Virus record (IMG/VR): IMGVR_UViG_3300031951_000087
Location: 1-64,000 of that record
Strand: one strand, 5' to 3'
From: a virus
Length of the DNA: 64,000 bases
Below the pieces are notes generated by a model. That model worked only from the letters and a program-made list of their open reading frames with translations, was not told where the DNA came from and searched no databases. Shown piece by piece: positions 33,744 through 38,244 of this stretch; the first letter of the stretch is position 1, and each line of letters opens with the position of its first letter. Position numbers and translations under genes: made by a program.

Positions 33744-35510
33744 TTGGAAAACCCCATAATTGAAAACTCAGGATTATTAGAACAAAAAGCCCTTAATACC
33801 CTACATGATTATCAGGGTGCAAATAACTATATCCTAAAATTAAAAGGTATTTTCAACCCAAACAAACGTGGTATTCCAACAAGAAGTCAATGTGAATACA
33901 TTTTAAACCACTCAAACACAACACCAAAAGTTGCAAAAAAATGGGTTGAATTGGATGATTATTTTTCTGAAAAAATATCAAACGAAAAATTATATACAGT
34001 TCCACCAAAACAAGTGTGGATTGAAAAGTTATTAGTTGAAAAAGATAAGTCTTATCATATTTGGGGTCGTTTTTTTGATAGTGAACCTTTAACAGATTTT
34101 TGGTTACCAAAGGCGGCAATCATTAAAAACCCTGAACAATACTATAAAGAAATTGATTATTCAAAGTATTCACATAGACCACTTCTTTCACACCAAGTTG
34201 AGGCGGTAGAAAAACTTGTAAAAACAAAAAGGTTTATTTTGGCTGATGATATGGGATTGGGTAAGACAACATCAACCATTGTGGCGGCGTTGGAAACTGA
34301 AGCCAAAAGAGTTTTAATTATTTGTCCTGCGTCATTAAAGATTAACTGGCAAAGAGAAATTGAAAATTACACAAAACGCTCAACATATATCTGCGGAAGT
34401 AAAAGATATGAGGATGCTGATTTTGTAATTGTTAATTACGACATTCTAAAAAACTTTCACGACCCAAAAGATAGGGACAACTCTCGTGTTTTAAAAAGTA
34501 ATTTTGATTTGGTTATTATTGATGAAGCACATTATATTCAAAATAAAACCGCACAAAGAACAAAATTAATCAACGACTTTGTGAAGGGGGTTGACAGATT
34601 GTGGTTGTTAACGGGTACACCAATGACATCACGACCAATGAATTATTTTAATTTGTTAGAACTTATTGAATCACCCGTTGCAGCAAATTGGATGGCATAT
34701 GTTGTTAGATATTGTAATGGGTACCAATTCAAAGTTGGTAATAGAAAAGTTTGGAATGTTATGGGAGCTTCAAATTTAGAAGAGTTAAGAGACCGAACAA
34801 CAAGACAAGTATTAAGAAGATTAAAAACAGATGTATTAGATTTACCTGATAAAATTATCACCCCCGTTTATTTGAGATTAAAATCAAAAGAATATGAAGA
34901 ATTAATGGGTGAGTATTTTGATTGGTATGAAAAAAATACCGATGAGAGTTCATCATTAACCGTTCAATTTACCAAGTTAACAAAGGTACGTCAGGTAATT
35001 GCACAAGAAAAAATACGGTCAACCATTGAATTGGTTGAGAACATATTAGAACAAGATAAAAAAGTAATAGTTTTCACAAACTTTACCGATTCCCTAAATA
35101 AAATTTATGACCATTTCGGTAAACAAGCCGTTTACTTGGATGGTTCATGTTCACCAGCAAAAAGACAAAACGCTGTTGACGAATTTCAAAACAATGAAAA
35201 AATAAAAGTGTTTGTTGGTAACTTAAAAGCGGCGGGTGTTGGTATTACACTTACTGCCGCTGAGGCGGTTATTATGAATGATTTATCATTTGTTCCATCC
35301 GACCACGCACAAGCTGAAGACCGAAGTTATAGATACGGACAAAAATCAAACGTATCGGTATATTATCCAATATTTGAAAATACTATTGAGGGTACAATTT
35401 ATGATATTCTCAATAAAAAGAAAAATATTTTTGAAACCGTAATGGGTGATAACGTGGGCAGGGCAGAGATTGTACAAGAAATTATGAATCAAATTTTTGG
35501 TAAGAGGTAA
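33744..35510 (+). CDS. SNF2/Rad54-family helicase (UvsW-like role)
   Basis: 588 residues starting with TTG. The helicase core begins near residue 145 with LLSHQVEAVEKLV. Walker A is ADDMGLGKTT near 166-175, motif II is DEAH near 260, motif III LWLLTGTPM near 292. The C-terminal lobe has KVIVFTNFTDSLNKIYDHF, VGNLKAAGVGITLTAA and SYRYGQKSNVSVYY, which is motif VI of SNF2 proteins such as SMARCAL1 and Rad54. It should move along DNA to remodel forks or joints, the job UvsW does in T4. The N-terminal 140 residues have no recognised domain. It starts the plus-strand group opposite the tail operon. Confidence 0.85.
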   Translation: MENPIIENSGLLEQKALNTLHDYQGANNYILKLKGIFNPNKRGIPTRSQCEYILNHSNTTPKVAKKWVELDDYFSEKISNEKLYTVPPKQVWIEKLLVEKDKSYHIWGRFFDSEPLTDFWLPKAAIIKNPEQYYKEIDYSKYSHRPLLSHQVEAVEKLVKTKRFILADDMGLGKTTSTIVAALETEAKRVLIICPASLKINWQREIENYTKRSTYICGSKRYEDADFVIVNYDILKNFHDPKDRDNSRVLKSNFDLVIIDEAHYIQNKTAQRTKLINDFVKGVDRLWLLTGTPMTSRPMNYFNLLELIESPVAANWMAYVVRYCNGYQFKVGNRKVWNVMGASNLEELRDRTTRQVLRRLKTDVLDLPDKIITPVYLRLKSKEYEELMGEYFDWYEKNTDESSSLTVQFTKLTKVRQVIAQEKIRSTIELVENILEQDKKVIVFTNFTDSLNKIYDHFGKQAVYLDGSCSPAKRQNAVDEFQNNEKIKVFVGNLKAAGVGITLTAAEAVIMNDLSFVPSDHAQAEDRSYRYGQKSNVSVYYPIFENTIEGTIYDILNKKKNIFETVMGDNVGRAEIVQEIMNQIFGKR

Positions 35511-35524
35511 GTTTTTTGAAAATC

Positions 35525-35535
35525 TATTTATTTAT
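35525..35535 (+). promoter_or_regulatory. Double TATTTAT box, putative late promoter
   Basis: Two overlapping copies (TATTTATTTAT) lie 16 nt before ATG 35552, just after the SNF2 gene stop. Confidence 0.5.
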
Positions 35536-35551
35536 AAGATAATGATAGATT

Positions 35552-37114
35552 ATGAAATTTAAAAAATTAAAAGCCGAAATTGAAGAATTAGAAGACAAAT
35601 TAACTACCAACGAAGACCTACAAGAATCAATACAAAACGAACAAAAAGAGATTATTAATGAAATGAAAAAAATTGGGATTGAAAGATTACCATATTCATA
35701 TTCATCACTTGGTAGATTTATTGACCCAAAAACAATGAATGTTCATTACAACAAACATTATAAAGGGTATGTTGAAAAATTAAATGCGGCACTTGCAAAT
35801 CTTAAAGGTGCCGATGCTGAACTTGAAGAAATTGTAAAAGGTATTTCAAGATATAACAAAACTGTTAAAAACAATGCGGGTGGTGCCTTTAACCACGCTT
35901 TGTTTTGGAAAATGTTATCGCCAAAGAAACAAACCATTAACGGTCCTGTAGAAGAAAAAATTAAAAAAGACTTTGGTTCTTACGAAGAATTCAAAAAACA
36001 ATTCACGGAAAAATCACAAAAGAATTTTGGTTCAGGATGGTGTTGGTTGGTAATTAATGGTCAAGGTAAATTAAAAATTGTTACGACATCAAACCAAGAT
36101 AACCCATTAATGAATACCGTCAAAGATGGTGGATATCCAATATTGGGTCTTGATTTGTGGGAACACGCATATTATTTAAGATACCAAAACAAAAAAGATG
36201 AATATATAGGAAAATTTTTCTCAGTTATTAATTGGGACTTTGTTAACACACTTCTTATATCTAAAAACGAAAAAAAACTTAACGAAGAAAAGTTAGCTGG
36301 TGAATTACTTGTTGAAACAAGAGAAAGTATAGGTTGTTCAACAACAGAGGTTAAAGAAATAAACAAAATGTTTTCAATGAACACACAAGTAAAATATAAA
36401 TTCATGAATACAATCAACACAATCATGAAAGAAAAATTTTCAGAATATTGGTTTGAAAAAGACCAATATGAACCAGGTTCAATGTCAGGAATTTATAATT
36501 ACGGAAAACCAGGTCGTTCAGTTATTAACAAATTAAATACAAATTACAGTTCGTTTTGTATTTTGATGAATGATTTAAATTTTTATTTAATTAAAAACAA
36601 TATAAAACCTATATCATTTGGGGATAAAGATAAATTTGCACAAATTAAAGAAGTTGAAAGATTTACAAAATATCTTTATGATTTAAGAGACCGAATCTTT
36701 AACTTGTCAACATCTAAAACTTTTCAAAATATTGTACAGAAATTAGTACAAACCGATTCCAAAGGTGAGGAAAGAGAAGATATTACTGTTATAGCATTAA
36801 GAAAAATATTTGGAACTGAAGACGTTCACAAAATTGGTGGATTGGGTTCTGAAGAAGATATGATTTCGGGTGTTGATGCGATTATTAATAAAGATGGTCA
36901 AAGATTGACAGCACAAATTAAACCATTTAGTGGTGTAAAAGATTTTAATGATGATAGTGTTATGGTGTTCGGAGCGAGCGCACCAAAACAATATAAAACT
37001 GATTATTTAGTTTTTAATAATAAAAACAAGACAGTCGTATTCAAAAATCAAAATACAAAAATTATTGATGGTAATTATGTATTTCCAAAATCAAACATAT
37101 TTGGAGATATTTGA
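35552..37114 (+). CDS. Mn/Fe superoxide dismutase fused to a nuclease-like C-terminal domain
   Basis: 520 residues. Residues 1-42 are a charged coiled coil. Residues 45-235 are a complete Mn/Fe superoxide dismutase: LPYSYSSLGRFIDPKTMNVH, metal ligands His65, His115, Asp201 and His205 (GLDLWEHAYYL), the helix pair motif FNHALFWK, and GSGWCWLV. Gln182 in SNQDNPL is placed like MnSOD Gln146, favouring manganese. Residues about 240-400 are helical and unknown. The end (about 405-500) resembles a PD-(D/E)xK nuclease core with Asp442 and Gln455-x-Lys457 (GVDAI, LTAQIK), preceded by a helix with Arg-Glu-Asp. It sits directly before gp13, has a TATTTAT box and so is probably late. The role is unknown; protection of the virion from oxidants or DNA processing are guesses. 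Confidence 0.7.
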   Translation: MKFKKLKAEIEELEDKLTTNEDLQESIQNEQKEIINEMKKIGIERLPYSYSSLGRFIDPKTMNVHYNKHYKGYVEKLNAALANLKGADAELEEIVKGISRYNKTVKNNAGGAFNHALFWKMLSPKKQTINGPVEEKIKKDFGSYEEFKKQFTEKSQKNFGSGWCWLVINGQGKLKIVTTSNQDNPLMNTVKDGGYPILGLDLWEHAYYLRYQNKKDEYIGKFFSVINWDFVNTLLISKNEKKLNEEKLAGELLVETRESIGCSTTEVKEINKMFSMNTQVKYKFMNTINTIMKEKFSEYWFEKDQYEPGSMSGIYNYGKPGRSVINKLNTNYSSFCILMNDLNFYLIKNNIKPISFGDKDKFAQIKEVERFTKYLYDLRDRIFNLSTSKTFQNIVQKLVQTDSKGEEREDITVIALRKIFGTEDVHKIGGLGSEEDMISGVDAIINKDGQRLTAQIKPFSGVKDFNDDSVMVFGASAPKQYKTDYLVFNNKNKTVVFKNQNTKIIDGNYVFPKSNIFGDI

Positions 37115-37121
37115 TATTTAT
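37115..37121 (+). promoter_or_regulatory. TATTTAT box, putative late promoter of gp13
   Basis: GATATTTATAAAG immediately after the stop of the preceding gene, 7 nt before ATG 37129. Confidence 0.5.
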
Positions 37122-37128
37122 AAAGAAG

Positions 37129-38244
37129 ATGGCAATTATTGTAGAACCAGAAAGAAGTAAACTCTATAGAAGAATTAAAGCCCTTCTTGGTGCACCTGTT
37201 AGAGGTGTTGAGTTAGAAGATGAGCAAATGGACTCATTATTAGAACTTGCGATTGGGGATTACGAACAATATATTTTAGATTGGTTAATTGAAGCACAAT
37301 GGACTTCTTTATATGGACTGAACCTTGACGAACAGTCTTTAACAAGGGCACTTACCAAAAGAAGTTTAGATTGGGAAACACAATACACTTACGCATATTC
37401 AAAGATAGTTGGATTACAAGCTGGTGGTGATTGGGTACTTAAAAAAGATTATGTTGATTTGGTTCCGAACCAACAAATTTATGAAATACCTAAGGGTCGT
37501 GAAATTAATGAACTTTTATGGTTCATGAGAGCCGAATTAAACAATTCATTATTCGACCCATTTATGGGTGGATTTGGAGGATTTGGTGGAACTGGATTAG
37601 GTGGTCCTGGCGGATTTGCACAATTTGGTGCAAGTGGAAGTTATTTTATGATGCCAGCGTTTGACGTTGTGTTAAGAATGGCGGATAGAAATCTCAAACA
37701 AAGAATGATTGTTGGTGATTTGACATATAGAATTACAGCATTGCCTGAAGGAAAAAAAGCATTACACTTATACAACACACCTGGTGGAAGATTTGATTTT
37801 TCAAATATTGGATTTAACGAATATAGATGTTGGTATTGGTACTACGATACTGATGGTGACCGTGATGATTGTTTGGCTGCAAATCCTGACATTGTTAGAT
37901 TACCATCTGACATACCATTAGAAGCGTTAAATTGGCAGGACCTTAATACACCCGCACAACAATGGGTTAGAAGATGGTTTACCGCTTACTGTAAAGAAAC
38001 ATTAGGTCGTATTTATGGTAAATACAGTGGTAACCTTAAAACCCCTGACTCTGAACTAACATTGGACTACACATCTTTGTTAGGTGAGGCTAAAGATGAA
38101 AGAGCAAAACTTGAAGAAGAATTAAAATTACGTCTTGAAAGATTAAGTCCTGTTAAACAAATGGAAAAGGAAGCCTTAATTGCTGAAAACCTAAATAAAC
38201 AATTAAAATATAGAGCGTTCCCAAGTCCCTATAATGTAATTTAA
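37129..38244 (+). CDS. 13: Neck protein, gp13-like
   Basis: 371 residues from ATG 37129; the TTG at 37111 lies inside the stop region of the previous gene, so I reject it. The C-terminal third has the gp13 hallmark: QWVRRWFTAYCKETLGRIYG, then LKTPDSELTLDYTSLLGEAK followed by a charged helix DERAKLEEELKLRLERLSPV. A Gly/Phe-rich loop lies near residues 135-175 (GGFGGFGGTGLGGPGGFAQF). T4 gp13 with gp14 seals the DNA-filled head and docks the tail. It follows the superoxide dismutase fusion and is followed 4 bp later by a small gene. Confidence 0.78.
   Translation: MAIIVEPERSKLYRRIKALLGAPVRGVELEDEQMDSLLELAIGDYEQYILDWLIEAQWTSLYGLNLDEQSLTRALTKRSLDWETQYTYAYSKIVGLQAGGDWVLKKDYVDLVPNQQIYEIPKGREINELLWFMRAELNNSLFDPFMGGFGGFGGTGLGGPGGFAQFGASGSYFMMPAFDVVLRMADRNLKQRMIVGDLTYRITALPEGKKALHLYNTPGGRFDFSNIGFNEYRCWYWYYDTDGDRDDCLAANPDIVRLPSDIPLEALNWQDLNTPAQQWVRRWFTAYCKETLGRIYGKYSGNLKTPDSELTLDYTSLLGEAKDERAKLEEELKLRLERLSPVKQMEKEALIAENLNKQLKYRAFPSPYNVI

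Follow-up and report, generated by a model that had tools for sequence, protein, structure and literature searches.

Alt of phage T4 is packaged, cleaved and injected, L/I-x-E is the motif after which the T4 prohead protease gp21 cuts, and when the T4 targeting leader is attached to foreign proteins, these too are packaged and delivered (PMC9026906). The closest general concept for the gene described here is that of the polyvalent proteins of phages and conjugative elements, for which separation of the domains upon deployment has been proposed (PMC5512222); the words 'superoxide' and 'dismutase' are absent from that text. Among viral superoxide dismutases (SODs), the Cu/Zn enzyme of chlorovirus PBCV-1 is expressed late, is carried in the virion and is associated with reduced superoxide in infected cells (PMC7019647).

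The window (the whole stretch of viral DNA analysed, 64,000 nucleotides) encodes a protein in which an SOD is fused to a predicted nuclease. What is new here is that the SOD and nuclease parts are bounded by candidate cleavage motifs of the gp21 type, [LI]-x-E. The features of the locus are as follows.

33744..35510, + strand: SNF2-type helicase gene, the constant upstream neighbour (domain and PHROGs matches, synteny)
35525..35535, + strand: overlapping TATTTAT boxes, late-promoter-like, 23-27 nt 5' of the ATG
35552..37114, + strand: SOD-nuclease fusion gene, 520 aa (ATG 35552, stop 37114; syntenic in 155/155 loci)
35552..35662, + strand: charged helical leader (residues 1-37) with [IL]-x-E37 at its end; candidate head-targeting propeptide
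35654..35662, + strand: candidate prohead-protease site 1, I-N-E37/M (pLDDT <50 at 33-38)
35663..36271, + strand: Mn/Fe-type SOD domain, residues ~38-240, ligands H65, H115, D201 and H205 (Pfam and PDB matches)
36278..36286, + strand: candidate prohead-protease site 2, L243-N-E245/E (S, T, E or G in relatives), inside linker 241-257
36308..36316, + strand: candidate prohead-protease site 3, L253-V-E255/T (relatives mostly G, T, S or A; conservation)
36323..36751, + strand: residues 258-400, a conserved helical stretch of the nuclease part carrying a GRSVINKLNTNYSxFC-type signature
36764..37111, + strand: predicted PD-(D/E)xK nuclease core, residues 405-520, with E409, D442, Q455 and K457 (model, conservation)
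37115..37121, + strand: TATTTAT box preceding the gp13-like gene
37126..38244, + strand: gp13-like head-tail adaptor gene (Ad2, phrog_211), the downstream neighbour (PHROGs match, synteny)

Like the T4 internal head proteins and Alt, this protein has an N-terminal leader and L/I-x-E sites, and a gp21 protease is encoded by the same phage. Unlike them, it joins an SOD to a nuclease with predicted internal cuts, its packaging is a prediction, no sequence relation to them was detected, and we take its leader to be unlike the T4 targeting peptide. The likeness to polyvalent proteins lies in disparate enzymatic domains within one late phage polypeptide: at least two such domains characterize that class and two are present here, while the one indication of lateness is the TATTTAT box. 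In contrast to that class as described (PMC5512222), our protein holds two enzymes only and has no metallopeptidase domain of its own; the prohead protease would separate them. PBCV-1 likewise has a late-expressed viral SOD, but it is a virus of eukaryotic algae, its SOD belongs to an unrelated family and is not described as a fusion (PMC7019647), and packaging of the phage protein is predicted. The phages of the PA5oct group and Vibrio phage 2.275.O also encode Fe/Mn SOD homologues; however, these share 26-27% identity with the SOD part only and leave the nuclease part unmatched. The proteins of the PA5oct-group phages and of MG592671.1 (H15-H26) are separate, divergent SOD-like proteins at 26-27% identity.

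The open reading frame of the preliminary description was recovered with the same start and stop, and the TATTTAT box and the gp13 gene that it had placed around this frame were found again. The order SNF2 helicase followed by the fusion gene was kept in all 155 loci checked, and gp13 came next where it was detected (150 loci). Since this gene order is common to 155 loci, the fusion gene is neither a product of chance nor a misassembly; it has one match within its 85-kb virus record. The gp13 protein of this phage, used as a query, gave no match among named phages. TATTTAT occurred within 70 nt upstream of the gene in 103 of the 113 unique relatives forming the promoter set, mostly 20-29 nt before the ATG. 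In the window, 12 of 37 TATTTAT sites stand 8-60 nt before an ORF on the same strand, versus 3.4% for 7-mers of the same composition. The SNF2 gene is not preceded by TATTTAT, unlike the fusion gene and gp13. Because the box also precedes several minus-strand genes within positions 24380-46601 of the window, including that of the tail sheath (31871), it looks like the late signal of this phage, and its position suggests late expression of the fusion gene.

The SOD part was identified by Sod_Fe_N at residues 44-123 (E 7e-21) and Sod_Fe_C at 131-232 (E 1.7e-39) in Pfam, both far above the cut-off, and residues 43-235 matched MnSODs in the PDB with E-values down to 1e-58. The conservation set comprised 117 full-length proteins, mostly from fragments of uncultured phages. 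The four metal ligands named in the preliminary description (H65, H115, D201 and H205) and the C-terminal Q182 were invariant in all of them, the second-sphere residues were invariant or nearly so, and the Asp-2 position (G199 in the window protein) was Gly in 110. Both Pfam domains, the three His and one Asp ligands and the water-coordinating Gln that characterize the SodFM family are thus present. By the published metal-preference rules for this family (PMC10172142), the C-terminal Gln together with Gly at Asp-2 points to a Mn-preferring enzyme. These are the features of SodFM1-type SODs, but here the domain follows a phage leader, precedes a nuclease and falls into a phage clade of its own: in a quick, unrooted tree, the phage SODs occupied one side of a starred branch and the 80 best cellular matches, mostly from Bacteroidota, the other. 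The single phage clade fits one acquisition of the SOD, probably from a Bacteroidota-like source.

Residues 240-520 had no significant match in Pfam or PHROGs. The Foldseek matches listed for the full-length model were all SODs, and the nuclease part was therefore modelled alone. The preliminary description had proposed a PD-(D/E)xK-like end, and the fold of this end was the test set beforehand. The model of residues 256-520 (pLDDT 90.9, pTM 0.81) had PD-(D/E)xK enzymes as its 12 best PDB matches, namely I-Ssp6803I and archaeal Hjc, with Foldseek probabilities up to 1.00. The E-values themselves were modest (0.007-0.28), and the assignment is made because the list is consistent and the catalytic residues fit. 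D442 and the pair Q455-x-K457, which the preliminary description had singled out, were invariant in 117/117 proteins, as was E409. The spacing of D442, Q455 and K457 equals that of D42, E55 and K57 in Hjc (PMC6555300), with 13 residues from D to Q. We conclude that the C-terminal domain has, as modelled, a PD-(D/E)xK fold and is a predicted DNA cutter. Its likeness to I-Ssp6803I and Hjc lies in the predicted fold and the E..D..QxK arrangement, whereas sequence similarity was not detectable and a further conserved helical region of ~140 residues is present here. A profile search of PDB sequences with the nuclease part gave no Hjc match at E up to 10, so that the likeness to Hjc is by modelled fold only and does not extend to sequence homology with the Hjc family. 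The matches of that search, mostly to tyrosine phosphatase SHP-2, were all rejected as chance-like.

The coiled-coil N-terminus seen earlier appeared in the full-length AlphaFold model as a coiled-coil-like leader, a helix at residues 2-39. Confidence dropped below pLDDT 50 at 33-38 and 241-257, and also at 318-320. The strict motif [LI]xE occurred at position 255 in 117/117 proteins, at 245 in 113/117 (E245 itself in 117/117) and at 37 in 96/117, so that site 37 falls outside the strict motif in about 18% of them. Glu is conserved at 98% or more in five columns, namely E204, E245, E255, E367 and E409. L or I stands at -2 for 24% of all Glu in the family proteins, and in five neighbouring control proteins 5 of 41 conserved Glu columns carried a conserved [LI]xE. 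Considering these 5/41 columns, the motif alone is weak, and its placement in both putative linkers is a stronger point than the motif itself. A gp21 homologue (PF03420, E 1e-23) is encoded in the same record, as is a gp23 with a conserved LINE/A near residue 60. The propeptide of T4 gp23 has 65 residues, a comparable position. Beside gp23 in record G000, a minus-strand gene (L110:1426-2313) encodes a conserved DLAVWFG(T)KKKPKGSKQP domain, which is preceded by a conserved Glu junction, E/DLAVWFG, in 8 relatives; this is another candidate head protein.

The search for relatives of the same domain order, proposed in the preliminary description, yielded 174 stretches for the full protein and at least 451 for the nuclease part in viral contigs. 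The earlier statement that no such fusion was known held for named phages, but not beyond them: the fusion is the common form in a large environmental clade of T4-like phages, and the nuclease model matched a 501-aa protein of an uncultured Caudovirales phage (UniProt/BFVD A0A6J5L953) already named 'superoxide dismutase'. A direct search with the nuclease part of the window gave no relative among named phages, and a search of prokaryotes with a single pattern, in which one genome stood for each species, gave none either. With other members as the query, the nuclease part was matched at 25% identity in the 735-kb uncultured phage LR756503.1, in which E, D and QxK are apparently kept (by eye). 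That homologue (L367:8950-9822) is a stand-alone protein of 290 aa with no SOD and no similar leader.

Among the loci gathered, the nuclease also occurred without the SOD in 65 ORFs (26 distinct), and the SOD-less loci checked had the same surrounding gene order as the fusion loci. The SOD-less leaders are about 30 residues long, with an LSE end abutting the nuclease. Most of these forms keep [LI]xE, and short-leader forms such as L261 and L235 have no clean site. In L246, an in-frame deletion of 203 aa relative to L249 has removed the SOD and left both junctions (SINE/MKKIEIEKL...ISE/GKSERC); MAFFT misplaced the alignment of this pair around the deletion, where the junction in the protein was located by visual inspection. 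A quick tree of 62 nuclease domains, with no root inferred, placed the SOD-less forms among SOD-bearing ones and required two changes for them; in it L246 was sister to L249 on a starred branch. Since the SOD-less forms are nested, the SOD start MKKIEIEKL is left in L246 and the SODs form a single clade, loss is preferred over gain, and a single entry of the SOD, followed by two or more losses, is probable. An SOD elsewhere was found neither in 11 records of SOD-less phages nor in five further ones (178-318 kb); these records may be incomplete. Natural SOD-plus and SOD-minus phages thus exist for comparison.

From these features we infer packaging, cleavage, injection, enzyme activities and targets, and consider it slightly more probable than not that the gene product is made late, is packaged in the head and is split by the prohead protease, giving a Mn-type SOD and a nuclease that are probably injected. 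The N-terminal helical leader would bring the fusion protein into the prohead core. A gp21-type protease would then cut after [L/I]-x-E at about E37 and E245/E255 during head maturation, removing the leader and releasing a Mn-preferring SOD and a PD-(D/E)xK nuclease as separate enzymes. Both would remain in the head and probably accompany the DNA into the cell. Of the two, the nuclease would be the constant function, with host or branched DNA as its probable target, and the SOD an added cassette that may clear superoxide in the surroundings of the packaged genome or in the cell just after infection. Packaging and delivery of this kind have precedents, because foreign proteins with the T4 leader are packaged and the chlorovirus SOD is packaged in the virion. 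The broader proposal is a class of head cargo whose single precursor unites an antioxidant enzyme with a DNA-cutting one; prohead-protease sites would join the two, which would be cut apart in the maturing head and co-injected, the enzyme between the sites being a removable cassette. This proposal has in our view slightly less than an even chance of being right. It suggests that the particles of some phages may contain an enzymatic defence against reactive oxygen, for which the chlorovirus with its unrelated SOD is a parallel, and that a prohead protease can make several delivered enzymes from one precursor. Domains bounded by [LI]xE behind a late box may serve as a sequence signature for head cargo in uncultured T4-like phages.

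Of the two roles offered in the preliminary description, that of a virion enzyme is the better supported, because of the conserved prohead-protease-type [LI]xE sites between the parts, with packaging itself a prediction; that of an SOD fold serving as a nuclease scaffold was not supported. Both SODs and Hjc-type nucleases are commonly dimeric, which would suit a mere scaffold or dimerisation module. Nevertheless, the SOD ligands and second-sphere residues are invariant or nearly so in 117 proteins and relatives shed the SOD cleanly while keeping the nuclease, and we regard this role as very improbable. Several points count against head cargo released by cleavage: the weak motif, the imperfect site 37, the short-leader forms with no clean site, a leader unlike that of T4 and the leaderless homologue of the 735-kb phage. 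The weakness of the motif and the base rate of conserved [LI]xE in the neighbours, together with the adjoining gp13 gene, would also fit a protein that is packaged and stays uncut as one chain, a structural or ejected head-neck protein whose linker motifs cap helices or serve as flexible binding elements. The position and invariance of the motifs, the gp21 homologue in the same phage and the modular loss of the SOD speak against such a protein, which we consider improbable.

The strongest rival is a late Hjc-like junction resolvase that acts inside the cell, is not itself packaged and, together with the neighbouring SNF2 helicase, processes branched DNA ahead of packaging or in its course; fusion to the SOD would then serve co-expression or local protection. 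The best PDB matches of the nuclease model include Hjc, which shares the spacing of its catalytic residues, the SNF2 helicase is the constant neighbour, and the 735-kb phage carries the nuclease with neither leader nor SOD. Endonuclease VII, RuvC and RusA were not detected in the related records, which are possibly incomplete, the Endonuclease VII search having had no positive control; because of this result a resolvase role keeps some weight. But such a role leaves unexplained why an invariant Glu with L/I at -2 occurs twice in the low-confidence linker, why the motifs are kept in the SOD-deletion form, and why there is a leader; moreover, TATTTAT precedes the fusion gene and gp13 and not the SNF2 gene. 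A resolvase that is never packaged is therefore unlikely in our judgement, though worth keeping in view, and head cargo cut by the prohead protease is the reading that we prefer.

Among named phages, Flavobacterium phage immuto is one of the closest to this phage in its major capsid protein (about 42%), and the host is therefore likely to belong to Bacteroidota. SOD matches in 'phage' records of Staphylococcus, Salmonella, Enterococcus, Listeria and Acinetobacter were set aside as probably host DNA. The same nuclease fold is contained in a 1113-aa protein of an uncultured marine phage (BFVD A0A8D9CCA0). In one relative (L026:3317-4880) the gene lies in two frames, broken near residue 215, through decay or assembly error. 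L023/L130 carry a shortened copy of 368 aa whose matches skip residues 426-493, a gap that would take out D442, Q455 and K457, and this shortening too may reflect either decay or assembly error.
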